A DNA stretch of 42,057 bases, taken from assembly GCF_029978005.1 (NCBI RefSeq), contig NZ_JARKOZ010000122.1, forward strand, positions 1-42,057. Reading direction: 5' to 3'. Positions 17,315-33,535 of this stretch are shown piece after piece; position 1 is the first letter of the stretch, and every line of letters begins with the position of its first letter. The position numbers and the translations under genes were made by a program. The notes under the pieces were generated by a model, which was not told the DNA's origin, did not search any database, and saw nothing but the letters and a program-made list of their open reading frames with translations. This stretch comes from Solidesulfovibrio sp. Its GTDB lineage: Bacteria > Desulfobacterota > Desulfovibrionia > Desulfovibrionales > Desulfovibrionaceae.

Positions 17315-19027
17315 ATGCCGTTTGACCGCCGCGCTGGGGGGACGGGGAGGACCGCCGCCGGGCCGCTTTGGCCGGACGTCCTGGCCGGCCTGACCTTGTG
17401 GGGCGTGCTCGTGCCCGAGGCCCTGGCCTACGCCGGCATGGCCGGCCTGCCCGTGGCCGCGGGCCTGTACACGCTTTTGGCGTCGCTGCCGCTCTATTTC
17501 CTCTTCGGCGGCAGCCCGGTCCTGGTCTGCGCCGCCACCTCCGCCGAATCCATCATGATGGCCGCCGTCGTCGCCCCCCTGGCCGGGGGCGACCCAGTCC
17601 GCTACGCCGCGCTCACGGCCCTGCTCGTACTGCTCACGGGCCTGGTCTTCCTGGTCTCCGGGCTCATGCGCCTGGGCCGCGTCACCTCTTTTTTGTCCAA
17701 GCCCGTCATGACCGGCTTCATCAGCGGCCTGGCCGTCTACATCGCGGCCAACCAGCTCCACAAGCTCCTGGGCCTGCCCCGGGGCCACGGCGACACCTTC
17801 ATGCAGGTTCTGCAACTGGCCGCCGACATCGGGCGCTGCAACCAGTCCGCCCTGGCCGTGGGCCTGTCGGCCCTGGCCCTGCTTTTCGCCCTGGAACGGT
17901 GGACGCCGCGCCTGCCGGCCGGGTTTTGCGTCATGGCGCTCGGCATCGCCGTCTCGCGCCTTCTGGATCTCGAGGCCCGGCACGGCGTGGAGGTGGTGCG
18001 CGGCGTCGCCACCGGCCTTCCCGGCCTGGTCGCGCCGGCCTGGGGCATCGCCGACGTGCGGGCCGTGTTCCCGGCGGCGGTGGGCCTGGCCCTGGTGGCC
18101 TTTTCCCAGGCTTTGGGCGCGGCGGAAAGCTACGCCCGGCGTTTCGGCAGCCGGGTCGACGCCGACCGGGAGCTGCGTGCCCTGGGCCTGGCCAACCTCG
18201 GCTCCGCGTTTCTGGGGGGACTGCTCGCCGGCGGCAGCATGTCCTCCACGGCGGTCAACGTCGCGGCCGGGGCGCGCAGCCGCGTCTCCTCCCTGGCCAC
18301 GGCGGTCCTGGTCGTCCTGACCCTGTGCTTCCTGACCCCGGTCTTCGCGGGCCTGCCCGAATCCGTGCTCGGGGCCGTGGTGATGCACGCCGTCATCAAG
18401 CTGTTCAAGCTCGGGGAGCTCAGGCGCTACCGGGCCATCAACCGCTACGAGTTCGTGCTCTCCCTGATCGCGCTTTTAGGCGTCGTGGTCCTCGACATCC
18501 TGCCCGGGCTGGTCCTGGCCGTGTCCGCCTCGCTTCTGCGCCTGATCGTCTTCGCCAGCGGCGTGGGCCTGTCCGTCCTGGGCCGGCTCGACGGCTGCGC
18601 CGTGGCCTGGGTGGACACGGCCCTGCACCCCGGAGCGCGGGAAATCCCGGGCCTCAAGGCCCTGCGCATGGAAGGGGCGCTTTTCTTCGCCAACGCCGAG
18701 AAGTTCCACGACGCGGTCCTGGCCCGGTGCGGGGCCGGCACGGGCGTGCGCGTCCTTGTCCTGCAACTCATGGCCAACCGCCGCCTCTGCGTCACCGGCG
18801 CGGACATGCTGCGCGAGCTGGCCGGGGAGCTGCGGGCCATGTCCGTGCGCCTGGTCCTGGTCGACCTGGCCCCGCAGGCCCTGCGCATGCTGCGCGACGA
18901 CGGCGTCATGGAGATCGTCGGCGAAGACAACGTCTACCCGAGCGTGGAACTGGCCGCGGCGGCCGTGGAGGGGAGCCTCGTCGCCGGGGCCGGGGGGGCC
19001 GGCGGGGAGGGGAGCGGCGAGGCCTAA
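17315..19027 (+). CDS. SulP-family anion permease with C-terminal STAS-like domain
   Basis: 570 aa inner-membrane transporter, sulfate permease/SLC26-like. The N-terminal Sulfate_transp region shows PDVLAGLTLWGVLVPEALAY, SKPVMTGFISGLAVYIAANQL, ALGAAESYARRFGSRVDADRE and the GGLLAGGSMSSTAVN motif, with about a dozen hydrophobic helices up to about residue 420. A STAS-like domain follows (about 430-555), but its usual DxSG-type motif is not clear (VLVLQLMANRRLCVTGADML). The C-terminus is a Gly/Ala/Glu-rich tail. ATG 17315 has a GGGGGAGGGG ribosome-binding tract. It starts 40 bases after the pump gene and could be co-transcribed with it. The anion could be sulfate, bicarbonate or a dicarboxylate. 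Its stop overlaps the convergent SIS gene by four bases. Confidence 0.88.
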   Translation: MPFDRRAGGTGRTAAGPLWPDVLAGLTLWGVLVPEALAYAGMAGLPVAAGLYTLLASLPLYFLFGGSPVLVCAATSAESIMMAAVVAPLAGGDPVRYAALTALLVLLTGLVFLVSGLMRLGRVTSFLSKPVMTGFISGLAVYIAANQLHKLLGLPRGHGDTFMQVLQLAADIGRCNQSALAVGLSALALLFALERWTPRLPAGFCVMALGIAVSRLLDLEARHGVEVVRGVATGLPGLVAPAWGIADVRAVFPAAVGLALVAFSQALGAAESYARRFGSRVDADRELRALGLANLGSAFLGGLLAGGSMSSTAVNVAAGARSRVSSLATAVLVVLTLCFLTPVFAGLPESVLGAVVMHAVIKLFKLGELRRYRAINRYEFVLSLIALLGVVVLDILPGLVLAVSASLLRLIVFASGVGLSVLGRLDGCAVAWVDTALHPGAREIPGLKALRMEGALFFANAEKFHDAVLARCGAGTGVRVLVLQLMANRRLCVTGADMLRELAGELRAMSVRLVLVDLAPQALRMLRDDGVMEIVGEDNVYPSVELAAAAVEGSLVAGAGGAGGEGSGEA

Positions 19028-19626
19028 TTGTCGCCGTAGAGCTCGAGGAAGATGTCCAGCCAGCAGTGGAGCAGGGCCTGGTGTCCGGCCTCGGCCAGGC
19101 CGTAGGTGGGGGCCGGAATCCAGAAATTGAGGTCCCCCATGCGCCGGGAGCGGTTGTCGGCCTTCATGCCGGACACGGTGATGACCTTGAGGTCCAGGCG
19201 ACGGGCCGTCTCGATGGCCCGCACGACGTTGGGCGAGTTGCCCGAGCTGCTCACCGTGACCAGCAGGTCGCCCGGGTTGGCGAACCGGGCCAGGGGCACG
19301 GCGAAGCATTCCTCGTAGCGGATGTCGTTGCTGATCGCGGTCATGAGCGCCACGTCGTTGAAGGCCATGGCCCGGCAGCCGCAGTTCTTGCTGAAGTCGG
19401 CGGCCATGTGGGAGGCCATGGCGGCGCTGGCCCCGTTGCCGATGAAGAACATGGTCTGGTCGGCCTGCTTGGCCTCGTGGCACATGGCGCACCATTCGAG
19501 CAGGCCCTGCTCCTGGGGCAGTTCGCGGCTTTCGCCGTCGGTGACGGCCATGGCCGCGAGGGCCTTGTGCAGGGCGTCCAGGTAGGACGCGTAGCGCGTG
19601 GGGCTGGGGATCTGGTCGTTGTGCAT
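19024..19626 (-). CDS. SIS-domain phosphosugar isomerase/binding protein (GmhA-like)
   Basis: 200 aa cytoplasmic protein with a single SIS domain. The sugar-phosphate loop FFIGNGASAAMASHMAADF and the SIS signature VSSSGNSPNVVRAIE are clear, with overall resemblance to sedoheptulose-7-phosphate isomerase GmhA (NDIRYEE matches its NDYGYEE). The GmhA C-terminal segment RIQEAH is GLAEAGH here, so the conserved Gln is absent and the exact reaction is uncertain. Start ATG 19626 has GGAGG about 6 bases upstream. It is transcribed alone, divergent from the histidine kinase and convergent with the SulP gene (4-bp overlap of stops). A role in heptose synthesis for LPS is possible but unproved. Confidence 0.75.
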   Translation of the reverse strand: MHNDQIPSPTRYASYLDALHKALAAMAVTDGESRELPQEQGLLEWCAMCHEAKQADQTMFFIGNGASAAMASHMAADFSKNCGCRAMAFNDVALMTAISNDIRYEECFAVPLARFANPGDLLVTVSSSGNSPNVVRAIETARRLDLKVITVSGMKADNRSRRMGDLNFWIPAPTYGLAEAGHQALLHCWLDIFLELYGDN

Positions 19627-19771
19627 GGGCGGCCTCCGTGGGGCGTTGCCTCGCCCCTTGCCGCTCTCGTTAAGCCACAACGGGGCCTTGGGCAAGCCGG
19701 CGGCGGCTCCGGCGGCGTCGCCCGCGCCCGGGGGAATTGACGCGCCCGGGGAAACGCGGCAGGGCATGGCC

Positions 19772-21520
19772 ATGAACGGTCGCGCCCCGCGCTTGTTCCT
19801 CCTGGCCTGCCTTTGCCTGCTGGCGCTTTCCGTCCTGGAGCCGGTCCCGGCCCGTGCCGCCGAGACCTGGGACGCCGCCCGGGACATTCCCGGAATCCTG
19901 CGCCCGGTCCGGGTCGGCGGCGACCGGGACTACCCGCCCTACGAATTCCTGGACAAGGACGGCCAGCCGGCCGGCTTCAACGTGGACCTCACCCGGGCCG
20001 TGGCCGAGGTCATGGGCATGCGGGTGGAATTTCGCCTCGGGGCCTGGGCCCGGGAGCTGCAAGCCCTCAAGGACGGCGAGGTGGACCTCCTCCAGGGCAT
20101 GACCTATTCCGACGAGCGCGACCAGTATATGGACTTCGCCCCCCACATCATCGTCAACCACGCCATCTTCGCCCGCCGCGACACCGCGCCCGTGTCCAAC
20201 CTGGACGAGCTGGCCGGCAGGAAGGTCATCGTGCACCGCGGCGGCTACATGCACGACACCCTGGCCGCCAAGGGCTTCGAAAAGGACCTCATCCTGTCCG
20301 ACACCCCGGCCGACGGCCTGCGCCTTTTGGCCTCGGGCCAGGGCGACTACGCCGTGGTGGCCATGCTGCCGGGCAGCTACATCATCCGCGAGAACAAGCT
20401 CGACAACATCCAGGCCGTGGCCCGGTCCGTGGCCACGGTGCGCTACGGTTACGCCGTGCCCCAGGGCCGCGAGGCCCTGCTCGCCCGCTTCAGCGAGGGC
20501 CTGGCCATCCTGCGCGAGACCGGGCGCTACCAGGCCATCCACGACAAGTGGCTGGGCGTGCTCGAGGACGGCAAGGTCCGCTGGGAGACCATCGGGCTCT
20601 ACGTCGGGGCCGTGGTGACCCCGCTTCTGACGCTCCTTGGCGGCTCCATGCTGTGGACCCATTTCCTGCGCAAGCAGGTGGCCCAGCGCACGCGCTCCCT
20701 GACCGAGGCCATGGAGGAGCTTTCCCGCAACCAGCGCCAGCTGGTTCAGGCCGACAAGATGGCGGCGCTCGGCATCCTGGTCTCGGGCGTGGCCCACGAG
20801 ATCAACAATCCCAACGGCTTGATCCTGCTCAACATCCCCATCCTGCGCAAGGTCCAGGCCGACGTCCTGCGCCTGCTCGACTCCTGGCGCGAACGGGAAG
20901 GGGAGTTCACCCTGGGCGGCATCGCCTACGGCCGCATGCGCCAGGAACTGCCCAAAATGCTCGAGGAGATGCAGGAGGGGGCGCTTCGCATCAAGCGCAT
21001 CGTCAACGACCTCAAGGATTTCGCCCGCAGGGAGGAGGGGGCCGGCAAGGCGCTCATCGACGTGGGCGACGCCTCGCGCAAGGCCGTGCGCCTGGTCGAG
21101 TCCACCATCCGCAAGCACACCGAACACTTCACCGTGGACTACGAAAAGGACCTGCCGCTGGTCTGGGGCAATTCCCAGCGCATCGAACAGGTGGTGGTCA
21201 ACCTCATCCTCAACGCCTGCCAGGCCCTGCCGGACAAAAGCCGCGGCATCGCCATCTCCACCCGCCACGACGCGGCGCGCGGCAAGGTGATCCTGTGCGT
21301 GCGCGACGAGGGCAGCGGCATCGCCCCGGAGCATCTGCCCCACCTGACCGACCCCTTCTTCACCACCAAGCGCGACGCGGGCGGCACGGGACTGGGCCTT
21401 TCCGTCTCCGCCGGCATCCTCAAGGAGCACGGCGGCGCGATCACCTTTGAATCCTGCTTCGGGGAGTGGACCATGGCCTGCATGGAGCTGCCCGCGGCCA
21501 GGGAGGAGTCCGGCGCGTGA
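19772..21520 (+). CDS. Sensor histidine kinase with periplasmic SBP3-type sensor domain
   Basis: 582 aa. Signal sequence at residues 6-30, then a solute-binding-protein family 3 domain (about 40-265, PVRVGGDRDYPPYEFLDKDG, VDLLQGMTYSDERDQYMDFA). One membrane helix follows (about 274-298), then a HisKA domain with phospho-accepting His342 in LVSGVAHEINNPNGL, and an HATPase domain (N box VVNLILNACQAL, G1 DEGSGIAP, G2 GGTGLGLSVSAGIL). It should sense a small periplasmic ligand, by family an amino acid or organic acid, and phosphorylate the regulator encoded next, whose start overlaps its stop (GTGA). The start is ambiguous between ATG 19766 and 19772; AGGG at 19761-19764 spaces better to 19772. 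Position next to the dicarboxylate cluster suggests a carboxylate-related signal. Confidence 0.88.
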   Translation: MNGRAPRLFLLACLCLLALSVLEPVPARAAETWDAARDIPGILRPVRVGGDRDYPPYEFLDKDGQPAGFNVDLTRAVAEVMGMRVEFRLGAWARELQALKDGEVDLLQGMTYSDERDQYMDFAPHIIVNHAIFARRDTAPVSNLDELAGRKVIVHRGGYMHDTLAAKGFEKDLILSDTPADGLRLLASGQGDYAVVAMLPGSYIIRENKLDNIQAVARSVATVRYGYAVPQGREALLARFSEGLAILRETGRYQAIHDKWLGVLEDGKVRWETIGLYVGAVVTPLLTLLGGSMLWTHFLRKQVAQRTRSLTEAMEELSRNQRQLVQADKMAALGILVSGVAHEINNPNGLILLNIPILRKVQADVLRLLDSWREREGEFTLGGIAYGRMRQELPKMLEEMQEGALRIKRIVNDLKDFARREEGAGKALIDVGDASRKAVRLVESTIRKHTEHFTVDYEKDLPLVWGNSQRIEQVVVNLILNACQALPDKSRGIAISTRHDAARGKVILCVRDEGSGIAPEHLPHLTDPFFTTKRDAGGTGLGLSVSAGILKEHGGAITFESCFGEWTMACMELPAAREESGA

Positions 21521-22926
21521 CCACCGTTCCCTATCCCGCCTTCGGCATCCTCATCGTGGACGACGAGCCGGCCTGGCTGCGCTCGCTGTCGCTGACCCTC
21601 GAATCCTCGGCCGGCATCACCAACACGTTCCTGTGCCAGGACAGCCGCGAGGTGCTCGCGCTCCTCGACAAGGGCGGCGTCGGCCTGGTGCTGCTCGACC
21701 TCACCATGCCGGGGCTCTCCGGCGAGGAGCTGCTCGCGGCCATCGCCGAGCGCCATCCCGACGTGACCGCGATCATCATAAGCGGCGTGAGCCAGCTCGA
21801 CACGGCCGTGCGCTGCATGAAGCTCGGGGCCTTCGACTACTACGTCAAGACCGACGAGGAGGACCGCATCGTCGGCGGCGTGCTGCGGGCCATCCGCATG
21901 CAGGAGCTGCGCGACGAGAACCTGGCCGTCAAAAGCCGGCTGGTGGCCGGCGGCCCGGCCCATCCCGAGGCCTTTTCCGGCATCGTCACCCGCTCCCGGG
22001 CCATGCACGCGGTGTTCGCCTACATCGAGGCCGTGGCGGCCAGCCCCCAGCCCCTGCTCGTCAGCGGCGAATCGGGCGTGGGCAAGGAGAACCTCGTGCG
22101 CGCCGCCCATGCCATAAGCGGCCGCGACGGGCCGCTCGTGGCCGTCAACGTGGCCGGCCTCGACGACGGCGTGTTCGCCGACACGCTCTTCGGCCACGTG
22201 CGCGGGGCCTACACCGGGGCCGACGCCCCGCGCCGGGGCATGATCGAGGAGGCGGCCGGAGGCACGCTTTTTCTCGACGAGATCGGCGACCTGTCCGTGG
22301 CCTCCCAGGTCAAGCTCCTGCGCCTGCTCCAGGAGGGCGAATACTTTCCGCTGGGCAGCGACCAGCCCAAGCGGCTGCGCGCCCGGGTGGTGGTGGCCAC
22401 CCACCGCGACCTAGCCGTGGACGAAACCGAGGGCCGATTCCGGCGCGACCTCTACTTCCGGCTGCGCACCCACCACGTCCACATCCCGGCCCTTCGCGAG
22501 CGCAAGGAGGACATCGAGCCGCTTCTGCGCCATTTCCTGGCCGAGGCCGCCGCAGCCATGGGCAAGCCCGTGCCCACCGCGCCGCCGGAGCTGGCCGGCT
22601 GCCTGGCCGCCTACCATTTCCCGGGCAACATCCGCGAGCTGCGGGCCATGGTCTTCGACGCCGTGAGCCTGCACGCCGGCCGCATGCTGTCCATGAAGAC
22701 CTTCCTGGCGGCCATGGACCGGGTCCAGCCCTGTCCCGCCCCCGCGCCGGCGCTCAACCCCTTCGCCCCCTTCGAGCAGCTGCCGACCTTCGCCGAGGCG
22801 GCCCGCTTCCTGGTGGACGAGGCTCTTTCCCGCTCGGGCGGCAATCAGACCCTGGCCGCGAGGCTGCTCGGCATTTCCCAGCCGGCGCTCAGCAAACGCC
22901 TCAAGCACGCCGCCAAACCCTCATAA
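21517..22926 (+). CDS. NtrC-type sigma-54-dependent response regulator
   Basis: 469 aa. Receiver domain with acidic pair VDDE, phosphorylated Asp61 (LLDLTMPG) and Lys111. AAA+ domain with Walker A GESGVGKE (184-191), the sigma-54 contact loop GAYTGA (about 230-235, variant of GAFTGA) and Walker B GTLFLDE. C-terminal Fis-type helix-turn-helix (GGNQTLAARLLGISQPALSK). The GTG start at 21517 overlaps the kinase stop and has GGAGG about 8 bases upstream; a longer frame to 21466 lacks support. It should activate sigma-54 promoters from upstream palindromes. Two such palindromes and a sigma-54-like promoter lie directly downstream, before the dicarboxylate cluster. Confidence 0.93.
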   Translation: MTTVPYPAFGILIVDDEPAWLRSLSLTLESSAGITNTFLCQDSREVLALLDKGGVGLVLLDLTMPGLSGEELLAAIAERHPDVTAIIISGVSQLDTAVRCMKLGAFDYYVKTDEEDRIVGGVLRAIRMQELRDENLAVKSRLVAGGPAHPEAFSGIVTRSRAMHAVFAYIEAVAASPQPLLVSGESGVGKENLVRAAHAISGRDGPLVAVNVAGLDDGVFADTLFGHVRGAYTGADAPRRGMIEEAAGGTLFLDEIGDLSVASQVKLLRLLQEGEYFPLGSDQPKRLRARVVVATHRDLAVDETEGRFRRDLYFRLRTHHVHIPALRERKEDIEPLLRHFLAEAAAAMGKPVPTAPPELAGCLAAYHFPGNIRELRAMVFDAVSLHAGRMLSMKTFLAAMDRVQPCPAPAPALNPFAPFEQLPTFAEAARFLVDEALSRSGGNQTLAARLLGISQPALSKRLKHAAKPS

Positions 22927-23117: not shown

Positions 23118-23259
23118 TTCTTTCGTCGCAAAGGCTGTTTCGCCATGCGGCCTCGCTTCGCCCGGGCACGACGGGACGGCCGTCGTGCCCGGCCTCGCGC
23201 GGACAGGCGCAGGCACGGCGAGCGGATCGAAACGACGCACCCAAAGGAGACCCCACCAC

Positions 23260-24690
23260 ATGCAACGCGCCCTCAAAGCTCTCGCTCCGGTGCTGCTCGG
23301 CCTGGTGATCTGGCTTCTGCCGGCTCCCCAAGGCCTGACGCCCGCCACCTGGACCTATTTCGCCCTGTTCGCCGCCGTGGTGCTGGCCCTCGTCCTCGAA
23401 CCCGTGCCCCCGGCCCTGGCCGGGCTCATCGGCGTGACCCTGGCCGGCATCCTGCGTCTGGTGCCCGTGACCCCGGGCAAGGTCCCGTCCCCGGGCGACG
23501 CCGTCAAATGGTGCCTGTCCGGCTTTTCCAACGGCACGGTCTGGCTCATCTTCGCCGCCTTCATGTTCGCCCTGGGCTACGAGAAGACCGGCCTCGGCAA
23601 GCGCCTGGGGCTCACGCTCATCCGGCGCATGGGCAAAAAGACCCTGGGCCTGGGCTACGCCGTGGCCCTGGCCGACCTGATCCTGGCCCCCTTCATGCCG
23701 TCCAACACCGCCCGAAGCGGCGGCACCATCTTCCCCATCATCAAGAACATCCCGCCGCTGTACGGCTCCACCCCCGAGGAGAATCCCCGGGGCATGGGCG
23801 CGTACCTCATGTGGACGGCGCTGGCCACCACCTGCGTCACTTCGTCCATGTTCCTGACGGGCCTGGCCCCCAACGTCCTGGCCCAGTCCCTGGTGGAGAA
23901 GACGGCCCACGTGTCCCTGGGCTGGAGCCAGTGGTTCGTCGGCGTGCTGCCCGTGGGCGTCATTTTGTTCCTGGCCACGCCCCTTTTGACCTACATCCTC
24001 TATCCGCCGACCCAGAAGACCTCGGAAAACGCCCCCACCTGGGCCGCCGAGGAGCTGCGCAAGCTCGGCCCCCTGACCGGCCGCGAGATCGCCATGGCCG
24101 TGCTGGCCCTGGGCGCGCTGCTCGGCTGGATCTTCCTCAAGGACTACGTGGACGCCACCATGGTCGCCCTGGCCGCCATCTGCATCATGGTCGTGGGCCG
24201 GGTGGTCACCTGGAACGACGTCATCGGCTACAAGCAGGCCTGGAACGTGCTGGCCTGGTTCGCGACACTGGTCACCCTGGCCGACGGCCTGGGCAAGACG
24301 GGCTTCCTCAAGTGGTTCGCCGAGGCCGCCGCCGTGCATTTGCAGGGCATGTCGCCCACGGCCACGCTGCTCGGCCTGACCCTGATCTTCTTCTTCAGCC
24401 ACTACATGTTCGCCAGCGTCACGGCCCACGTGGCCGCGCTTTTGCCCGTCATGCTGGCCACGGCCATGGCCGTGCCCGGGCTCGATATCGCCACGGCCTC
24501 CATGGTCCTTTGCGCCACGCTCGGCATCATGGGCATCATCACCCCCTACGGCACCGGCCCCTCGCCCATCTATTTCGGCTCCGGCTACGTCAAGAGCAAG
24601 GAATTCTGGGTGCTCGGAGGCATCTTCGGCGTCATCTACCTCGGCGTCTTCCTGCTCGTGGGCTTTCCCTGGATCGTGTCCCGGGGCTAG
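23260..24690 (+). CDS. DASS-family di/tricarboxylate transporter (CitT/TtdT-like)
   Basis: 476 aa, about 12 hydrophobic segments, inner membrane. The signature PSNTARSGGTIFPIIKNI closely resembles CitT/TtdT-type transporters, as do YPPTQKTSENAPTWAAEEL and the C-terminal GIMGIITPYGTGPSPIYFGS. Relatives exchange citrate, tartrate or C4-dicarboxylates for succinate, or co-import with sodium. Linkage to fumarase and fumarate reductase suggests malate or fumarate uptake with succinate exit (inference). ATG 23260 is used because AGGAGA lies about 10 bases upstream and the protein then begins with its first membrane helix. It is the first gene of a seven-gene unit behind the sigma-54 promoter candidate. 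Confidence 0.9.
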   Translation: MQRALKALAPVLLGLVIWLLPAPQGLTPATWTYFALFAAVVLALVLEPVPPALAGLIGVTLAGILRLVPVTPGKVPSPGDAVKWCLSGFSNGTVWLIFAAFMFALGYEKTGLGKRLGLTLIRRMGKKTLGLGYAVALADLILAPFMPSNTARSGGTIFPIIKNIPPLYGSTPEENPRGMGAYLMWTALATTCVTSSMFLTGLAPNVLAQSLVEKTAHVSLGWSQWFVGVLPVGVILFLATPLLTYILYPPTQKTSENAPTWAAEELRKLGPLTGREIAMAVLALGALLGWIFLKDYVDATMVALAAICIMVVGRVVTWNDVIGYKQAWNVLAWFATLVTLADGLGKTGFLKWFAEAAAVHLQGMSPTATLLGLTLIFFFSHYMFASVTAHVAALLPVMLATAMAVPGLDIATASMVLCATLGIMGIITPYGTGPSPIYFGSGYVKSKEFWVLGGIFGVIYLGVFLLVGFPWIVSRG

Positions 24691-24729
24691 CGAACGGGTC
24701 GTTTCACAAGACGAATGCAAGGAGCAAGC

Positions 24730-25569
24730 ATGCGCACCATTCCCAAAGAAACCGTGGTCGATGCCGTGGCCGCCATGTGCATCGAAGCCAACCGCTACCT
24801 GCCGGCCGACGTCCTGGGCTCCTTCGCCCGGGCCAAGGAGGCCGAAACCCTGCCGGCGGCCAGGGAGATCTTCGGCCAGCTCGAGGAAAACGCGGCGCTG
24901 GCCGCCAAGACCGGCCTGCCGCTGTGTCAGGACTGCGGCCTCGGCGTCTTCTTCGTCGAGGCGGGCGAGGGCGTGCGCCTGGAAGGCGCGACCCTGCGCG
25001 AAGCCATCAACGAGGGCATGGTCAAGGGCTACCAGGACGGCTACCTGCGCAAGTCCACCTGCGACCCCTTCACCCGGAAAAACGTGGGCGACAACTCCCC
25101 GGCAGTCATCCACTTCGACCTGGTGCCGGGCGAGAGCCTGAAAATCTGCATGATGGCCAAGGGCGGCGGCTCGGAGAACATGTCCCGGGTCATGATGCTC
25201 GCCCCGGCCCAGGGTTGGAAGGGCATCCGCGAGTGCGTCATCCGCCGCGTGGCCGAGTCCGGCTCCAACCCCTGTCCGCCCATCCTGGTCGGCGTGGGCA
25301 TCGGCGGCAACTTCGAGCTGGCCGCCATCAATTCCAAGAAGGCCCTCCTGCGCGAGGTGGACGACGTCCATCCCGATCCCGAGGTGGCGGCCATGGAAGC
25401 CGACCTGCTGGCCTCCATCAACCGCCTGGGCATCGGGCCCATGGGACTTGGCGGGGCCACCACCTGCCTCGGCGTCAAGGTCAAGGTCGCGCCCTGCCAC
25501 CTGGCCAGCCTGCCGCTGGCCGTCAACATCCAGTGCCACAGCGCCCGGCACAAGGAGGTCACCCTCTAA
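24730..25569 (+). CDS. Class I fumarate hydratase, alpha subunit
   Basis: 279 aa iron-sulfur hydro-lyase subunit. The cluster cysteines are expected at about C66 (PLCQDCG), C182 (NPCPPILVGVG) and C269 (IQCHSARH). KNVGDNSPAVIHFDLVPGE, MAKGGGSENMS and GLGGATTCLGVKV are typical of two-subunit fumarases and differ from the TtdA-like alpha at 943. The start has AGGAG 6 bases upstream. Its stop overlaps the beta-subunit ATG by one base (TAATG). Placed after a dicarboxylate transporter and before fumarate reductase, it most likely converts malate to fumarate for reduction. Class I fumarases are oxygen-sensitive, consistent with an anaerobe. Confidence 0.92.
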   Translation: MRTIPKETVVDAVAAMCIEANRYLPADVLGSFARAKEAETLPAAREIFGQLEENAALAAKTGLPLCQDCGLGVFFVEAGEGVRLEGATLREAINEGMVKGYQDGYLRKSTCDPFTRKNVGDNSPAVIHFDLVPGESLKICMMAKGGGSENMSRVMMLAPAQGWKGIRECVIRRVAESGSNPCPPILVGVGIGGNFELAAINSKKALLREVDDVHPDPEVAAMEADLLASINRLGIGPMGLGGATTCLGVKVKVAPCHLASLPLAVNIQCHSARHKEVTL

Positions 25570-26126
25570 TGGCCGAACATCACCTGACCACGCCCCTTTC
25601 CGATGCGGACGTGGAGAAGCTCTCCGCCGGCGACGTCGTGTTCCTCTCGGGCACCATCTACACCGGTCGCGACGCGGCCCACAAACGCCTGGTCGAGGCC
25701 CTGGACGCCGGGCAGGACCTGCCCTTCGACGTCAAGGGAGCGGTCATCTACTACGTCGGTCCCTCGCCGGCCCGGCCCGGCTATCCCATCGGCGCGGCCG
25801 GCCCCACCACCAGCTACCGCATGGACTCCTACGCCCCCAGGCTCATGGCCGAGGGCCTCAAGGGCATGATCGGCAAGGGCATGCGCGCCGCCGAGGTCAA
25901 GGCCGCCATGGCCGCGCGCAAGGCCGTGTACTTCGGGGCCACGGGCGGCGCGGGCGCGCTGCTTGGGCTTCGCATCAAGGAGGCCCGGGTCGTGGCCTAC
26001 GAGGACCTGGGCCCGGAAGCCGTGCGGGAACTGACGGTGATCGATTTCCCGGTCCTGGTCATCAACGACTGCCATGGCGGCGACCTCTACGCCGTGCCGG
26101 ACCTGGAAGCGGCCCTTGGCGCCTGA
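25569..26126 (+). CDS. Class I fumarate hydratase, beta subunit
   Basis: 185 aa partner of the preceding alpha subunit, overlapping it by one base. Family marks are LTTPLSDADVEKLSAGDVVF, GRDAAHKRLVEAL, YYVGPSPARPG, AAGPTTSYRMD, the IGKGMR loop and FGATGGAGALLGLRI, ending in INDCHGGDLY. It starts MAEHHLTTPL directly at the overlapping ATG. The fumarase and tartrate-dehydratase type pairs in this window are clearly distinct proteins, not a recent duplication. Confidence 0.93.
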   Translation: MAEHHLTTPLSDADVEKLSAGDVVFLSGTIYTGRDAAHKRLVEALDAGQDLPFDVKGAVIYYVGPSPARPGYPIGAAGPTTSYRMDSYAPRLMAEGLKGMIGKGMRAAEVKAAMAARKAVYFGATGGAGALLGLRIKEARVVAYEDLGPEAVRELTVIDFPVLVINDCHGGDLYAVPDLEAALGA

Positions 26127-26172: not shown

Positions 26173-27600
26173 ATGAAACGATTTCGCGAAAGCGGGACAG
26201 GGCTCACGGCCGCACCGGACAGGCCTGGACCCCCTTGTCCGGGCGGCCGCAGGCCGCTGTACAAGTCGCTCTACTTCTGGGTGCTTTGCGGCATCGCCGC
26301 CGGCATCGGCCTGGGGCTCGTGCCGGCGACCAAGGGCCTGGCCATGCAGATGCAGCCCCTGGGCGTGGCGTTCATTCGCATGGTGAAGATGCTGATCGCC
26401 CCGATCATCTTCTGCACCGTGGTCACGGGCATCGCCAAGATGGGCGACATGGGCCGGGTCGGCCGGGTGGGCGTCAAGTGCATGCTCTACTTCTGGGCCA
26501 TGACCCTGTGCGCCCTGGCCATCGGTCTCGTCGTCGTCAACCTGTACCAGCCGGGCGCGGGCATGGACGACTACGCCGCCCGCATGCAGGCCGACCAGGC
26601 CGAGCTGGCCAAGGTCCAGGAGTACGCCGGTGCGGCCCGGAAGATGTCGACCCAGGAGTTTCTCCTGAACATTGTGCCTTCGTCGGTGGTGGACGCCTTC
26701 GCCAAGGGCGACATCCTGCAGGTGCTCTTCTTCTCCGTGCTCTTCGGCGTCGCCCTGGCCAACCTGGGCGAGCGGGTCAGGCATTTCGTCGACATCCTCG
26801 ACGCCTTCTCCAAGGGGCTTTTCAAAGTCATCCACTACGTCATGTACTTCGCGCCGCTCGGCGCTTTCGGGGCCATCGCCTACGTGGTGGCCTCCCAGGG
26901 AGCCGACGCCCTGGCGCGGCTGGTCTACCTCATGCTCGGCGTCTACACGACCTGCCTGCTCTTCATCTTCGGCGTGCTCGCCGTGGTCTGCAAGCTGGCC
27001 GGCTTCTCCCTGTGGCGCTACCTGGTCTATATTAAAGAGGAAATCCTCCTCGTGCTCGGCACCTCCTCGTCCGAGGCGGCCCTTCCCCGCATGATGGCCA
27101 AACTGGAAAATGCCGGCGCGGACAAGTCCGTGGTCGGGCTGTGCCTGCCCATGGGCTACTCGTTCAACCTGGACGGCACTTGCATTTATCTCACCATGGC
27201 CGCCGTGTTCCTGGCCCAGGCCACGGCCACGCCCCTGGACCTGTCCCACCAGCTCTACCTCCTGGCCATCCTGCTTCTCACCTCCAAGGGCGCGGCCGCG
27301 GTCACCGGCGGCGGCTTCATCACGCTCGCCGCCACGCTCCAGACCGTGGGCACGATTCCGGTCGCCTCGCTGACCCTGCTGCTCGGCGTCGACCGCTTCA
27401 TGTCCGAGGCCCGGGCCATCACCAACATGATCGGCAACGGCATCGCCACCATCGTGGTGGCCAAATGGGAGAACGCCCTGGACGCGGGACGGCTGCGCGA
27501 CGTGCTCTCCGGGCGCTCCTGCGGCGATTCCGAAGACGGCGACGCCCTGGACCGCACGGCCGCCGAGGCCCTGGCCCTGGTGACCGTGGACGACAAATAA
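26173..27600 (+). CDS. dctA: DctA-like C4-dicarboxylate:cation symporter (DAACS family)
   Basis: 475 aa inner-membrane symporter. Substrate-site motifs are clear: GTSSSEAALPRMMAKLE, GYSFNLDGTCIYLTMAA and GVDRFMSEARAITNMIGN, all DctA/GltP hallmarks. The DctA-like wording (ALPRMMAKLE, CIYLTM) favours C4-dicarboxylates over glutamate. It has an unusual Pro/Gly-rich N-terminal extension of about 30 residues before the first helix. ATG 26173 has GGAG 6 bases upstream and lies 46 bases after the fumarase beta gene. It gives the cluster a second, unrelated dicarboxylate importer, perhaps for net uptake while the DASS protein exchanges substrates. Confidence 0.9.
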   Translation: MKRFRESGTGLTAAPDRPGPPCPGGRRPLYKSLYFWVLCGIAAGIGLGLVPATKGLAMQMQPLGVAFIRMVKMLIAPIIFCTVVTGIAKMGDMGRVGRVGVKCMLYFWAMTLCALAIGLVVVNLYQPGAGMDDYAARMQADQAELAKVQEYAGAARKMSTQEFLLNIVPSSVVDAFAKGDILQVLFFSVLFGVALANLGERVRHFVDILDAFSKGLFKVIHYVMYFAPLGAFGAIAYVVASQGADALARLVYLMLGVYTTCLLFIFGVLAVVCKLAGFSLWRYLVYIKEEILLVLGTSSSEAALPRMMAKLENAGADKSVVGLCLPMGYSFNLDGTCIYLTMAAVFLAQATATPLDLSHQLYLLAILLLTSKGAAAVTGGGFITLAATLQTVGTIPVASLTLLLGVDRFMSEARAITNMIGNGIATIVVAKWENALDAGRLRDVLSGRSCGDSEDGDALDRTAAEALALVTVDDK

Positions 27601-27656: not shown

Positions 27657-29369
27657 ATGGAATCCTATGACATCGTCATCGTAGGCTCGGGAGGGGCCGG
27701 GTTGCGGGCGGCCGTGGGCGCTTTGCAGACCAACCCCTACCTGGACATCATGGTCGTCACCAAGACCATGCCGACCCGCTCGGCCACCTGCATGGCCGAG
27801 GGCGGCATCAACGGCGTGCTGGATTTTCCCGGCCAGCAGGACTCGCTCGACGCCCACAGCTTCGACACCGTCAAGGGCAGCGACTACCTGGGCGACCAGG
27901 ACGCCATCGACTTCTTCGTGCAAAAGGCCTCCGAGGCCGTGCGCGAGACCGACTTCTGGGGCACGCCCTACAGCCGCGAGGCCGACGGCCGGGTGGCCTG
28001 CCGCCTGATGGGCGGCCACAAGCACGCCCGCACCAACTTCTCCGCCGACAAGACCGGCCACATTTTGCTCCACTCCAACTTCGACTACGCGCTCAAAAAC
28101 GGGGTGCGCTTCCGCGTCAACTCCCAGCTCCTGGACGTGGCCGTGAAGGACGGCGTGTGCCGGGGCGTGGTCGTGCGCGACACCGACACCGGCGAGGTGA
28201 CGGCCATCCGGGCCAAGGCCGTGGTGCTGGCCACCGGCGGCTACACCCGCATGTTCTGGGCCCGCACCAGCACGCCCTACATCGCCACGGGCGACGGCGT
28301 GGGCGTGGCCCTTCGCGCCGGTGTGGCCTTCAAGGACCCGGAGATGGTCCAATTCCACCCCACGGGCGTAGCCAACGGCGGCGTGCTGATTACCGAAGCC
28401 GCGCGCGGCGAGGGCGGCTACCTGGTCAACAACGCCGGCGAGCGCTTCATGGCCCGCTACGCCCCGGACCGCATGGAGCTGGCCCCGCGCGACATCACCG
28501 CCCGGGCCATCGAGACCGAGATCATCGAGGGCAGGGGCTACGGCGAGGGCCTGGGCGCGCACGTGCTCCTCGACCTGCGCCACCTCGGCCGCGAGCGCAT
28601 CCTGGAGCGCCTGCCCCAGATCCGCCATGTGGGCCTGCTGTTCGAGAACCTGGACCTGGTGGAAAAGCCCATTCCGGTGCGGCCCACGGCCCACTACTCC
28701 ATGGGCGGCATCGACGTGGTGGACTTCGAGCACATGAAGACTTCCGTGCCCGGGCTCTTCGCCGCCGGCGAATGCTCCTGCGTGTCCATCCACGGGGCCA
28801 ACCGCCTGGGCGGCAACTCCCTGGCCGACGCCATGGTGACCGGCAAGCAGGCCGGCATCGGCGCGGCCTGCCACGTGCCTGGCGCCTCCTTCGGCGGGGA
28901 CGCCGCCCTGGAGGCGCTCGTTTCCAGATGGCGCGAGCACTTCCGCGAGGCCACCTCGCGCAGGGGCGGCGCGTCCGTGCCCGAGCTGCGCGAGAAGCTG
29001 GCCGCCGTGCTCTGGGAGGGTATGGGCATCTTCCGCACCGAGGACAAGCTCTCCGGGGCGCTTAGCGCCGTTACCGGCCTGCAAAAGGAGTTCGAGACCG
29101 CCGTGGTCGGCAACGACAACCCGGTGTGCAACACGGCCTATGCCCACTTCCTGGAGGTCGGCAACCTCCTGTCCCTGGCCCGTTGTTCCCTGGTGGCGGC
29201 CAAGGCCCGCCACGAATCGCGCGGGGCGCACACCCGCGAGGACTACCCTACGCGCGACGACGCCGCCTTCCTCAAGCACAGCCTGGTCACCGTGCAGGAC
29301 GGCGACTACCGCCTCGACTACCGCCCGGTGACCGTCACCAGGCACCAACCCCAGGAGCGCAAGTACTGA
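27657..29369 (+). CDS. Fumarate reductase/succinate dehydrogenase flavoprotein (type E, TfrA/MfrA-like)
   Basis: 570 aa FAD subunit that reduces fumarate or oxidises succinate. FAD-binding start IVIVGSGGAGLRAAV; catalytic region QFHPTG, TEAARGEGGYLVNNAGERF with the key Arg, RPTAHYSMGGI with His, and GANRLGGNSLADAMV with Arg. The usual covalent-FAD motif R-S-H-T is R-S-A-T here (Ala43), so FAD should be bound non-covalently. There is no Tat or Sec signal, unlike periplasmic methylmenaquinol:fumarate reductases. It begins 56 bases after dctA with AGAGG upstream, and its stop overlaps the next start (TGATG). The gene set and lack of a cytochrome b gene mark it as a non-classical enzyme. Direction of reaction is inferred from context. 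Confidence 0.9.
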   Translation: MESYDIVIVGSGGAGLRAAVGALQTNPYLDIMVVTKTMPTRSATCMAEGGINGVLDFPGQQDSLDAHSFDTVKGSDYLGDQDAIDFFVQKASEAVRETDFWGTPYSREADGRVACRLMGGHKHARTNFSADKTGHILLHSNFDYALKNGVRFRVNSQLLDVAVKDGVCRGVVVRDTDTGEVTAIRAKAVVLATGGYTRMFWARTSTPYIATGDGVGVALRAGVAFKDPEMVQFHPTGVANGGVLITEAARGEGGYLVNNAGERFMARYAPDRMELAPRDITARAIETEIIEGRGYGEGLGAHVLLDLRHLGRERILERLPQIRHVGLLFENLDLVEKPIPVRPTAHYSMGGIDVVDFEHMKTSVPGLFAAGECSCVSIHGANRLGGNSLADAMVTGKQAGIGAACHVPGASFGGDAALEALVSRWREHFREATSRRGGASVPELREKLAAVLWEGMGIFRTEDKLSGALSAVTGLQKEFETAVVGNDNPVCNTAYAHFLEVGNLLSLARCSLVAAKARHESRGAHTREDYPTRDDAAFLKHSLVTVQDGDYRLDYRPVTVTRHQPQERKY

Positions 29370-30340
29370 TGGACACCCTGACCTTTCTCATCGACCGCTA
29401 CGACGGCGTGAATTCCTGGCGGCAACGCTACGAGTTCCCGTACCGCCCCGGCATGACGGTCCTGGCCAGCCTCATTCACATCAAGGAGCGCATCGACCCC
29501 ACGCTCAACTTCACGGCCTCCTGCCGCAGCGCCATCTGCGGAGCCTGCGCCGTGCGCGTCAACGGCAACGCCCTGCTCGCCTGCGACACCATGGTCGACG
29601 ACCTGCTTACGGTCTGGGGCGAGGGCGCGCTGGTCGTGAGCCCGCTTGGCAACGCCAAGGTGGTCAGCGACCTGGTGGTGGAGTGGAGCGAAAAGATCGA
29701 GCGGCTGCGCCTGGCCAGGCCCGGGCTGCACGCCAAGCCGGAATTCTCCGCCGAAAAGGGCTGCCGCCAGTCCCCCAAGGACATGCAGGCCGTCGCCAGG
29801 CAGTGGGACTGCATCCTGTGCGGCAGCTGCGCCTCGGAATGCAACAAGCTGACCGACTCCGAGAAGGACTTCCTGGAACCGTTCGTCTTCACCCACGCCG
29901 CCCGCTACGCCGGGGATTCGCGTTCGGCCGACCCCCTGCGCCACGTGGAGGGCATGCTGGAGAATGGCCTGTGGAAATGCGTCCATTGCATGGAATGCGT
30001 CTCCAAATGCCCCAAGCACATCCGCCCGGGCGAGGACATCGCCGCCATGCGCCACATGGCCGTGGAGGCCGGCCATACCGAGGGCCCCGGCCCGCGCCAC
30101 GCCGAGGCCTTCCGCACCGACCTGGAAAAGACCGGCCGGCTCAACGAGGTCAAGCTCGTGCCCCGCACCGAGGGCATGTTCAGCGCCGCCACCAAACGGC
30201 TGCCCTTCACCATGCGCATGTTCGCCAAGGGCAAGCTCGGCGTTCTGGAGGCGGCCCGCCTGTTCGTGGCCGACAACGCCCCCGTGGAAAACATCGACGG
30301 CCTGCGCAAGGTCATCGCCCCCGAGAGGAAGGAGTCATGA
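29369..30340 (+). CDS. Fumarate reductase/succinate dehydrogenase iron-sulfur subunit (type E)
   Basis: 323 aa. An N-terminal [2Fe-2S] ferredoxin domain has Cys 52, 57, 60 and 72 (SCRSAICGAC). The C-terminal ferredoxin domain has C148-x2-C-x2-C-x3-C158 (CILCGSCASEC) and C204-x2-C207-x2-C-x3-C214 (CVHCMECVSKCP). In classical subunits the second Cys of the last motif is Ile or another residue and the cluster is [3Fe-4S]. Here Cys207 should give a second [4Fe-4S], as described for archaeal type E enzymes. The protein passes electrons between the CCG subunit and the flavoprotein. A tail of about 100 residues after the ferredoxin domain is longer than in E. coli SdhB. Both ends overlap neighbouring genes. 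Confidence 0.92.
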   Translation: MDTLTFLIDRYDGVNSWRQRYEFPYRPGMTVLASLIHIKERIDPTLNFTASCRSAICGACAVRVNGNALLACDTMVDDLLTVWGEGALVVSPLGNAKVVSDLVVEWSEKIERLRLARPGLHAKPEFSAEKGCRQSPKDMQAVARQWDCILCGSCASECNKLTDSEKDFLEPFVFTHAARYAGDSRSADPLRHVEGMLENGLWKCVHCMECVSKCPKHIRPGEDIAAMRHMAVEAGHTEGPGPRHAEAFRTDLEKTGRLNEVKLVPRTEGMFSAATKRLPFTMRMFAKGKLGVLEAARLFVADNAPVENIDGLRKVIAPERKES

Positions 30341-31215
30341 AATACGCGTTTTTTCCCGGTTGCGTCCTCCATGCCGCCGCCAAGGAGGCCTGCGTCTCCA
30401 CCCTGGCCGTGGCCAAGCACCTGGGCCTGGAGCTGGTGGAAATCCCCGGCTGGTCCTGCTGCGGCGCGAGCCACGTGCAGGACGTCGATCCCGAGGCGGC
30501 CCTGCTGGCCAACGCCCGCAACCTGGCCCTGGCCGAGAAGATGGGCTTGCCGGTGCTGACCGCCTGCAGCACCTGCGCGCTCATGCTGCGCCAGTCCCGG
30601 GCCAGGCTCCTGGATGGGGCCATGGACGCGGCCAACGAGCGCCTGGCCGAGATCGGGCTGCGCTTCCAGGGAACCTCGGAAGTGACCCATCTGCTCTGGG
30701 TGCTGGCCGACACCGCCGACGCGTGGGCGTCCAGGGTCGTAAGGCCCCTGGAGCACCTGCGCGTGGCCCCGTTCTACGGCTGCCACACCGTGCGTCCGCC
30801 GGAGATCATGAACTACGAAAGCCACCTGAATCCCCAGAGCCTGGAGCGGATCGTGCGGGCCTGCGGGGCCGAGCCCGTAGCCATCCCGGAGCGGCTTCGC
30901 TGCTGCGGCTTCCACGCCGTGTTCCCGGCCGAGCAGACGGCCATGCGCATGACCGCCGCGGCCGTGGTCAGCGCGGCCAAGGCCGGGGCCCATTGCCTGC
31001 TCACGCCCTGTCCCCTGTGCCACATGCAGCTCGACATGTACCAGCCCGACGCCCTGTCCCCGGCCTGCGGCGACCGGCCCGTGCCCGTGCTGCACCTGGC
31101 CCAGCTCGTGGGCGAGGCCCTGGGCCTGGACAAACGGGACATGGCCCTTTCCCGGCATATCGTCGACGCCAGGCCCGTGCTCAAGGCGGCGACGAGCGGT
31201 TGCGGCCTTTCGTGA
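30337..31215 (+). CDS. HdrB/SdhE-like CCG-domain subunit of fumarate reductase
   Basis: 292 aa with two cysteine-rich CCG domains: C9...C41-C42...C77-x2-C80 ([19 protein letters not shown]) and C149...C189-C190...C225-x2-C228 ([21 protein letters not shown]). Such subunits hold special iron-sulfur clusters in heterodisulfide reductase HdrB, TfrB and SdhE/MfrE. They replace the haem b anchor of classical succinate:quinone reductases. It starts in an ATGA overlap with the iron-sulfur gene, behind GGAAGGAG. The electron donor (menaquinol, a thiol or another carrier) cannot be read from sequence. It is the last gene of the dicarboxylate cluster. Confidence 0.9.
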
Positions 31216-31319: not shown

Positions 31320-31408
31320 GCTTTCCCCGAAGTCCCGCGTCCGTCCCCAAGGATGGTTTTTTCGGCCCAAGGCCCCGAGCGATGTCCCCCCAACGGAGCG
31401 AGGCAATC

Positions 31409-33535
31409 ATGAGACGTTCCATCCGCATCCGGCTCATCTGCGGCGTCGTCGCCATCATCACCCTGCCTTTGCTGGGCATTTTCGGCATCATCGCGCTCAA
31501 TATCTTCGAGCTCTCGCGCGACGACTACGTCGCCGCCTCCCATGCCGAGCTGTTGCGCACGAGCCAGGCCGTGGCGCTTTTTCTGGGCGAGGCCAAGGCC
31601 AGCATGGACCATCTGGCCTCCTACCCCGAACTGCGCGCCATCGACGCCTCGCTCACGGACTTCCTGAACGTCCAGGGCAAGGTCCCGACCCTGCCCCGGC
31701 CGGACGACGTCCTGGGCCAGCGCCTGCGGGAGTGGTGCGTGCTGCTGCAGAAGTCCCATCCCGACTACCGCAAGGTCTACCTCGGCAGCCGCTTCGGCGG
31801 GTTCGTCAGCAATGCCGCCGCGCCGCGCGGTTCCTACGATCCCCGGGAGCGGGCCTGGTACAAGGACGCCGTGGCCGCGCCGGACCGGGCCGTGGTCTCC
31901 TCGCCGTTTCGCTCCACGGACGGCCAGGCCACCATCAGCGCCGCCCGGGCCTTCGCCGACGCCTCGGGCAAGGTGCTCGGCGTGGTTTCGGCCGACATCT
32001 CCCTTTCCGTCATCACCGACATGGTGGCGGCCATCCGGCCGGGCAAGACGGGCTTCGTGGCGGTGGCCGAAAAAGACGGGGTGGTGGTGGCCGACACGGC
32101 GCGGCCCGAGGCCAGCCTCAAGCCCCTGGCCGAGCTCGGCGACCCCGGCCTGGCGGCGCTTTTTTCCGGCCCGGCCGGCCCGGTCGAGGCCGAACTCGGC
32201 GGCCAGGCCTACCTGGCCAACGTCTTCGACGCCCCGGAAACCGGCTGGCGCTTCGTCAGCTGCATCGCCAAGGCCGAACTCATGGCCCCGGCCCGGCGCA
32301 CCGTGACCGCCATCGCCTGGGTGGCCCTGGGAAGCCTGATGCTGATCATCGGCGTGCTGTGGTTTTTCATGGACCGCTCGGTCATCCGCCCCCTGTCCCG
32401 GGTGGGCGGGTTCCTCCAGGCCCTTGGCGCGGGAAACTACGAGACGCGGCTGGAAAAGCCGCGCCGCCGCGACGAGATCGCGGCCATGTTCGCGGCGCTC
32501 AACGCCATGGCCGCGCGCCTTGGCGAGACCATGGCCGACGTCCGAACCAAGAGTCGCGAGGCCGAGGAAAAGGCCCTGGCCTGCCAGGCGGCCACGGACA
32601 AGGCCGAGGAGGCCTCGCGGGAGGCCCTGCGCGCCCGGGAGGAAGGCATGCTCCAGGCGGCCAACCGGCTGGAATCGGTCGTTGCCGTGGTGGCTTCGGC
32701 CACGACCTCCCTGGCCGCCCAGGCCGAGCAGGCGACCCGGGGCGCGGCTACCCAGGCCCGGCGCGCCGAGGAGACCGCCTCGGCCATGACGGAGATGAAC
32801 GCCACCGTGCTGGAAGTGGCCAGGAACGCCTCCGAGGCGGCCCGCACCTCGGCCCAGGCCAGGGGCCAGGCCGAGGAGGGGACGGCGCTCATGGGGCGCG
32901 TGGCCGAGGCCATGGAGCGGGTCCGGGCCGACGCGCGCCGGTCCCGGGAGCGCATGGGGGACCTCGGCCGGCAGGCCGAGGACGTGGGCCGCATCCTCGG
33001 CATCATCTCGGACATCGCCGACCAGACCAACCTCTTGGCGCTCAACGCCGCCATCGAGGCGGCAAGGGCCGGGGAGGCCGGCCGGGGGTTCGCCGTGGTC
33101 GCCGACGAGGTCAGAAAGCTCGCAGAAAAGACCATGCTCGCCACCAAGGAGGTGGGGGAGGCCGTCACCGGCATCCAGCACAGCGTCGGCGGCACCCTCG
33201 GCGGCATGGACCGCACCAGGCAGGTCATCGCCCAGGCCATGGACCAGACCGACGCGGCCGCCTCTGGCCTGGACGCCATCCTTGCCCTGGTCGGCGAATC
33301 CTCGGACCAGGCGCGCTCCATCGCCACGGCGGCCGAGCAGCAGTCCTCGGCCACCGAGGAGATCAACCGGCACATCGAGGAAATAAACGCCAGCTCCACC
33401 GAGACGGCCGAAGCCATGCGCCACGCCTCCGGGTCCGTGTCCGAGCTCGCCCGCCAGACCGAGGCCCTTGGCGAACTCATCGCCTCCCTGGAGGAGGAAA
33501 GCGGCGGCCGGGGCGTGCGGGCGCTGGGCGCGTAG
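31409..33535 (+). CDS. Methyl-accepting chemotaxis protein with Cache sensor domain
   Basis: 708 aa transmembrane receptor. TM1 is at about residues 12-32. A periplasmic double-Cache region follows (about 35-300, with the [20 protein letters not shown] motif and [13 protein letters not shown]). TM2 is at about 303-326, then a HAMP segment, then a long signalling coiled coil with the conserved hairpin tip [20 protein letters not shown] and [15 protein letters not shown] near 535-570. It should bind a small ligand outside and control CheA. ATG 31409 starts just before TM1 and has GGAG about 10 bases upstream. It follows the fumarate reductase operon on the same strand, so a carboxylate ligand is conceivable. 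No C-terminal CheR-binding pentapeptide is seen. Confidence 0.93.

Follow-up and report, generated by a model that had tools for sequence, protein, structure and literature searches.

Type E succinate:quinone oxidoreductases join the flavoprotein (A) and iron-sulfur subunit (B) of complex II to an HdrB-like subunit (E, or SdhE) and have no haem-b anchor; the available text of a 2023 review states that no structure of the class had been reported (PMC10238741). The closest described system is the 8-methylmenaquinol:fumarate reductase (MFR) of Wolinella and Campylobacter (MfrABE/SdhABE), a periplasmic enzyme with a twin-arginine (Tat) signal on A. In the available text of PMC2680327, the Wolinella enzyme has Ala86 of SdhA at the flavin adenine dinucleotide (FAD) site, binds FAD non-covalently and oxidises no succinate, and restoring the histidine at this site did not bring succinate oxidation; its activity was 0.1 U/mg with the menaquinol analogue DMN and 0.9 with the 8-methyl analogue, and activity with the coenzyme thiols CoM-SH/CoB-SH was absent. 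A second related system, the CoM/CoB thiol:fumarate reductase TfrAB, likewise has an HdrB-type domain as its electron entry, carried within one fused protein, TfrB (model of 488 positions). Here we analyse an A-B-E gene set on a contig of 42,057 nucleotides (the window) from a Solidesulfovibrio sp. draft genome (NCBI RefSeq assembly GCF_029978005.1, contig NZ_JARKOZ010000122.1). Judged by its sequence, the set fits best as a cytoplasmic variant within the MFR lineage, and we think it probable that it works as a membrane-peripheral, one-way menaquinol:fumarate reductase fed by dicarboxylate import and fumarase.

Gene content and family assignment

An earlier sequence-only reading of the window proposed three overlapping genes for a flavoprotein, an iron-sulfur subunit and an HdrB-like subunit with two CCG domains, and this is borne out on the forward strand. 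A (27657..29369, 570 residues, no signal peptide), assigned by Pfam, NCBIfam, its N-terminus and the tree, has the domains FAD_binding_2 (1.9e-94) and Succ_DH_flav_C and the complete fumarate-site motifs FHPTG, EAARGEGG, APRDI, HYSMGG and GANRLGGNS. Its FAD-link motif, RSATCMAEGG (residues 41 to 50; 27777..27806, same strand), places Ala43 where complex II has the FAD-linking histidine. B (29369..30340, 323 residues counted from its ATG) overlaps A by 1 base and E (30337..31215, 292 residues) overlaps B by 4 bases, all three frames being complete; Pfam, NCBIfam and motifs agree for both. B combines Fer2_3 and Fer4_8 domains with the 2Fe-2S cysteines C52, C57, C60 and C72 and two full 4Fe-4S motifs (C148/151/154/158 and C204/207/210/214), which is the type E pattern according to the available text of PMC2680327. 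E holds ten cluster cysteines over its two CCG domains (C9, 41, 42, 77 and 80; C149, 189, 190, 225 and 228), and its AlphaFold2 model (mean pLDDT 90) has the HdrB fold, with a TM-score of 0.90 to 5odc_B.

The dedicated anchor gene that would have spoken against a type E enzyme was looked for and not found. None of A, B and E has a transmembrane-helix-like stretch, the gap between the upstream DctA gene and A is 56 bases, and this short gap together with the overlaps leaves no room for an anchor gene between them; genome-wide, PF01127 (Sdh_cyt) matched twice, both times on other contigs (C50 and C152). With complex II A and B subunits, an HdrB-like SdhE and no haem-b anchor, the set is a type E oxidoreductase in the wide sense, and a classical FrdCAB assignment was rejected. 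The earlier reading that these genes do not follow Desulfovibrio's FrdCAB plan stands, with the shift of emphasis that the genome also has classical FrdCAB twice, on those same two contigs.

The SdhABE/MfrABE/TfrAB plan previously suggested can be narrowed, with MfrABE as the nearest. The best NCBIfam matches of A, B and E are the MFR trio, at 868, 377 and 368 bits, and E-values of 3e-261, 5e-113 and 5e-110 exclude chance, although all three fall short of the equivalog cut-offs (1100, 600 and 500). The strict cut-off for A is also narrowly missed by Sulfurospirillum (1068) and by a Desulfovibrio protein of group g3 (L052, 1084), while Campylobacter majalis passes (1149). A passes the sdhA_frdA subfamily model (685 bits, cut-off 567). 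Three other families were rejected: L-aspartate oxidase for A (nadB model, 361 bits against a cut-off of 452.75), TfrAB (TfrA model 426 against 718 on A, TfrB model 139 against 385 on B, with B and E in separate frames) and HdrB of heterodisulfide reductase for E (CoB_CoM_SS_B, 181 against 345, the partners being complex II A and B).

The set shares with the Wolinella and Campylobacter enzymes the adjacent A-B-E order with an HdrB-like E lacking a transmembrane helix, the FAD-site alanine, the second 4Fe-4S motif in B and the ten SdhE cysteines. It is unlike them in scoring below the MFR cut-offs, in lacking a Tat signal, in having fumarase and importers in its operon and in that no MqnK/MenK-type gene was found in its genome. 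Since it misses the cut-offs and lacks the export signal, and since no methylmenaquinone gene turned up, we do not class the set as MFR. A begins with MESYDIVIVGSGGAG, which contains no export signal, and in two relatives a stop codon closes the frame 5' of the A start, 21 codons away in L048 and 17 in L050, which agrees with the cytoplasmic orientation that the sequence-only reading had predicted.

Phylogeny and distribution

Relatives came from a scan of named genomes seeded by two SdhE peptide patterns, which misses distant or unusual members, and the best 80 of 194 relatives were kept. Of 93 loci, 9 had no full-length A and were dropped, leaving 84 rows. The A tree has 54 rows (33 of the 84 removed for redundancy or long branches and three flavoproteins of the own genome added), and the joint A+B+E tree has 46 (38 removed for the same reasons). 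Both are quick trees with SH-aLRT support only and represent MFR by Campylobacter concisus, C. majalis and Sulfurospirillum, without Wolinella and C. jejuni.

In the A tree, eight Tat-less Desulfovibrionaceae rows form a clade (support 97) with Telmatospirillum as sister (98), and these ten rows are together sister to the Tat-bearing MFR of Campylobacterota and Desulfovibrio (100), the nearest characterised lineage. The joint tree agrees, with high support. The subunit phylogeny that had been proposed as a check therefore places the window A with the MFR of Campylobacterota and away from both classical FrdA of its own genome, to which it is only 33% identical. Among named relatives, the nearest are Solidesulfovibrio alcoholivorans, whose strain DSM 5433 carries the operon (locus L058), and a metagenome-assembled genome (MAG) of S. 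magneticus (A 92 to 93% identical). The closest exported relatives are the two Telmatospirillum loci, L062 and L063, from alphaproteobacterial MAGs; the neighbours of L062 include LysR- and LrgB-type genes. L014, a further flavoprotein frame, is probably miscut and could not be placed in any family.

Searching 199 genomes of the order with the MFR model for SdhE gave 12 matches that exceed the cut-off, every one of them from the Desulfovibrio-type genomes of group g3, and seven at 346 to 395 bits, one per genome: in the own genome, two others of its genus, a g9 genome, a g7 genome, and two g3 genomes in which it is the second copy. The remaining matches listed reach at most 231 bits and are HdrB-like. 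Within the own genus, 3 of 10 genomes carry an MFR-like SdhE of the window kind. Eight g3 copies were read, namely the two second copies and one copy from each of 6 of the 12 genomes, and a twin-arginine signal is present in every one, whereas the window clade has none. The g3 sets have the same gene order as the window set, with 59 to 62% identity in A and 56 to 57% in E, but differ from it in their Tat signal (RRKFLQSA... in six of those read), in their flanks, which as far as fetched match neither fumarase nor DASS, and in their scores (1084 bits for A of L052; 548 to 587 bits for E, over the cut-off of 500). Two g3 genomes each have two different Tat-bearing MFR-type operons (L046 and L052 in G071; L047 and L053 in G097), and next to the second-type operon in L046 lie genes for a solute-binding protein and for a PrpR-like sigma-54 regulator.

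For the history of the Tat signal, two changes suffice on the rows with alanine at the FAD link (Ala-type) alone, and equally when just the rows with flank are used; taken by itself, this would speak for two losses. Once the histidine-type outgroup is added, three changes are needed and three gains tie with one gain plus two losses, so that change counts do not decide between a lost and a never-gained signal. A topology that unites the 16 Tat-less Ala-type rows is rejected (p-AU 2e-63) in a test picked after the tree was seen.

Linkage to fumarase and importers

The dicarboxylate operon proposed earlier was also confirmed. On the forward strand, A-B-E is preceded by a DASS-family carrier, presumed to be for dicarboxylates (23185..24690), class I fumarase alpha (24715..25569; 387 bits in the fumarate hydratase model, cut-off 276, and 183 in the tartrate dehydratase alpha model, cut-off 365), class I fumarase beta (25566..26126) and a DctA-type dicarboxylate carrier (26173..27600, start inferred from translation); the carriers and the beta subunit were assigned by Pfam and NCBIfam.

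In the neighbourhood survey, linkage was counted over those Ala-type loci that have 2.5 kb or more of sequence 5' of A; four duplicates were dropped, and eight Tat-bearing and two Tat-less loci were too short to be counted. The queries were the window's own fumarase and carriers, so unlike carriers could escape. Class I fumarase-like genes adjoin 11 of 26 Tat-less loci versus none of 27 Tat-bearing loci. Of the linked loci, seven belong to the window clade, where every locus with sufficient flank is linked, and four to Firmicutes. Three of the Firmicute loci also have DASS; in the fourth (L084), the pair is 30 to 38% identical to fumarases and 44% identical to the window's tartrate dehydratase beta. 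A Pfam scan of 30 neighbour frames of unlinked loci (27 beside Tat-bearing loci and 3 beside Veillonella) found no fumarase or dicarboxylate carrier; 6 of these frames had no match and may be wrong frames, as genes were called mechanically.

The order DASS-FumA-FumB-A-B-E is common to L048, L049, Sporomusa malonica, Anaerospora and Desulfosporosinus nitroreducens. The Firmicute sets are Ala-type and Tat-less like the window set but lie on a separate branch, with A 49 to 51% identical. In Solidesulfovibrio-type loci, the fumarase is closest to that of the FrdCAB operons of the own genome (71 to 77%), while L051 and L060 have at the same spot a fumarase of a different branch, closest to the Firmicute form (59 to 67%). 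Hence, either the fumarase was exchanged at least once with the linkage kept or the linkage was gained twice, and either speaks for a working unit.

Taken with the trees, these counts suggest, tentatively and with rather more doubt than confidence on our part, that the MFR lineage has switched its working side of the membrane more than once, being cytoplasmic in Desulfovibrionaceae and separately in Sporomusa/Desulfosporosinus-type Firmicutes, with fumarase and a dicarboxylate carrier attached there and in none of the exported forms examined. If true, this switching would provide a natural experiment on the reason for exporting a fumarate reductase, and the question can be tested by comparison, since sulfate reducers have both exported and non-exported members of the lineage, with importers and fumarase seen beside the non-exported ones only. 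The parts are known, but in the open-licence literature (subscription journals lay outside the scope) we found no description of a cytoplasmic MFR-type enzyme, of MFR in Desulfovibrionaceae or of the combination of MFR lineage, no export and linked import and fumarase. A cytoplasmic version may also purify more easily than an exported one, although this is a guess.

FAD site, electron donor and proposed function

Across the 84 rows, the FAD-link residue is alanine in 67 of MFR and Firmicute type and histidine in 17 of Chloroflexi type and Woesearchaeota. Among 20 type E loci of other Desulfobacterota families, 18 had an A match and 16 of these have histidine, with the motif RSH[ST].AAQGG in 15 and RSHTITAHAG in L231; L236 has RTNSAVAAGG and L247 is unlike the others. 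Since the window enzyme has alanine as in MFR, one-way fumarate reduction is expected, and we conclude by homology that this is probably what it carries out. A coupled signature of FAD site and SdhE cysteines was considered and rejected. All ten cysteines occur in 28 of 28 Ala-type rows, and the Chloroflexi loci (L116 to L132), with histidine at the FAD site, have C42 replaced by threonine in 8 of 8 aligned rows; a 37th aligned row, without A, kept C42. However, most other histidine-type loci keep the cysteine, and of the 20 further Desulfobacterota E rows, 18 have all ten, 15 of them beside a histidine flavoprotein.

Two MqnA/MqnD-family genes (PF02621) in the genome point to menaquinone synthesis by the futalosine route. 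For the MqnK/MenK-type methyltransferase we used NF006385, a model named for the coproporphyrinogen III oxidase family, which we infer to serve for MqnK from the C. concisus match (678 bits), as this has all six methyltransferase motifs given in the available text of PMC10320005; Sulfurospirillum scores 539 bits with 3 of 6 motifs. These two alone pass the cut-off of 355 among 25 genomes, and the 12 g3 genomes with Tat-bearing MFR fall below it. In the own genome (96.3% complete), the search gave only HemW, at 114 bits and with one of the six motifs (HNxxYW), and traces under 30 bits. According to the available text of a 2026 survey, genomic detection of methylmenaquinone genes is unreliable (PMC13386864), so an undetected methyltransferase is not proof of absence. 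Six SdhE residues (V10, L11, Q48, W121, F192 and H193) are common to all 67 Ala-type SdhE, occur in none of 13 HdrB of the order (a set dominated by one genus group) and differ from 5odc_B; they were taken from 22 positions listed against HdrB because they also differ from 5odc_B, as F5, F6, H150 and H253 do not. As these positions are as in MFR, the same kind of donor is suggested, hence menaquinol, and the sequence data make ordinary menaquinol, not 8-methylmenaquinol, the most likely one.

Under the function that we favour, external C4-dicarboxylates would enter via DASS or DctA, the operon fumarase would dehydrate malate to fumarate and A would reduce fumarate to succinate. Menaquinol would donate at the inner face of the membrane, with SdhE (HdrB-like fold, two non-cubane cluster sites) as the presumed electron entry, and electrons would pass via the SdhB clusters (4Fe-4S and 2Fe-2S) to a non-covalent FAD in A; the neighbouring two-component system may regulate the operon. 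While gene content, motifs, the FAD-site alanine, the missing signal, phylogeny and linkage are read from the sequence, we infer the reaction direction, the donor, the membrane contact and the regulation.

Several points weigh against this function. The fumarate reductase activity of the window clade is itself a prediction, and neither a transmembrane helix nor, in a simple moment scan, a clearly amphipathic helix was found that would make the proposed membrane contact. Tat signals were scored by pattern and by eye and not with a signal predictor. No fumarase adjoins 15 of the 26 Tat-less loci, although these are close kin (14 Veillonella and one Negativicutes MAG), and the association of a missing signal with fumarase comes down to two independent contrasts (sign test pairs), too few for significance. 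The poor activity of the Wolinella enzyme with DMN also means that plain menaquinol is not the obvious donor.

A different donor is the chief alternative. SdhE might be fed by a cytoplasmic dithiol, as TfrB is by CoM-SH/CoB-SH, with no quinone involved; we take DsrC to be a candidate. The HdrB fold of SdhE with all ten cluster cysteines, the predicted position in the cytoplasm, where dithiols are found, and the undetected methylmenaquinone gene would all suit such an enzyme. We nevertheless consider it unlikely, because SdhE is 56 to 57% identical to five Tat-bearing g3 MFR but 32 to 37% to the 13 HdrB of the order, the six residues above set it with the Ala-type SdhE, B and E are unfused with TfrA far below its cut-off, and the Wolinella enzyme lacked activity with the two thiols.

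That the enzyme is mainly an oxidative type E succinate dehydrogenase seems very improbable, even though these share the ABE plan and A passes the sdhA_frdA model. The alanine that it has in common with the 67 MFR- and Firmicute-type rows, in place of the histidine of the Chloroflexi, Woesearchaeota and most other Desulfobacterota rows, argues for reduction, as do the neighbouring fumarase and importers and the failure of the Wolinella enzyme, also with alanine, to oxidise succinate. The least probable alternative that we considered is a reductase chiefly for another alkenoate, such as mesaconate, crotonate or an acrylate-type acceptor. It finds a precedent in the C. jejuni MFR, thought to permit mesaconate and crotonate use according to the available text of PMC4148689, but the complete fumarate-site motifs in A, the linked fumarase and two C4-dicarboxylate-family carriers, and the different fumarase at the same spot in relatives favour fumarate.

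Surrounding genes and the rest of the genome

The operon is preceded, on the forward strand, by a histidine kinase that carries an SBP_bac_3 sensor in the periplasm (19598..21520, start uncertain; Pfam), with 78% identical copies in L048 and L049, and a sigma-54 response regulator (21466..22926), the probable operon regulator, with copies 86 to 89% identical upstream of DASS in L048, L049, L058 and L059. The same four loci have, in the same place, the dCache chemoreceptor found downstream of E (31409..33535, forward strand, start inferred). With the sigma-54 consensus used, no -24/-12 site was found upstream of DASS, and the sole match in the window (18762) is at chance level. Searches of the window gave no evidence for sigma-70-type promoters (0 found, mean of 0.8 in shuffles) or terminators (5 found, mean of 4.7); a hairpin with a T run lies at 31341-31356, between E and the inferred chemoreceptor start. 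The window also holds a SulP-family carrier upstream of the histidine kinase (17315-19027; 322 bits, subfamily cut-off 380) and, as another dicarboxylate hydro-lyase besides the fumarase, the alpha and beta subunits of an L(+)-tartrate dehydratase (907-2444; 499 and 358 bits, cut-offs 365 and 264).

The draft genome comprises 4.82 Mb in 224 contigs, of which the window is contig 224, and is 4.1% contaminated. Each of its two classical FrdCAB operons (L011 on C50 and L012 on C152) differs from the window set in its cytochrome b anchor and histidine FAD site (RSHSSAAQGG) and resembles it in an adjoining fumarase AB, 73 to 77% identical to the window's; that on C152 also has a sigma-54 regulator and a DctA upstream, the latter 79% identical to the window's. 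The genome thus has paralogous dicarboxylate modules, of which two are centred on membrane FrdCAB and the third on the type E enzyme. Since both classical operons are present too, the type E set is an addition and not a replacement, giving the anaerobe a third, probably one-way, route; duplicate fumarate reductases are known in the group, with two copies in D. gigas according to the available text of PMC4287179. Both FrdCAB operons contain, by eye, a gene resembling an NAD/FAD-binding NfnA-type subunit. On a further contig (L013, C176:10000-19000, reverse strand), a TfrA-like flavoprotein (506 bits, cut-off 718) is accompanied, again by eye, by a small membrane anchor, an SdhB-like protein seemingly fused to a Rieske domain (437 residues) and a cytochrome b fused to a c-type haem domain, and from its sequence this locus looks like a combined complex II/bc-type assembly.

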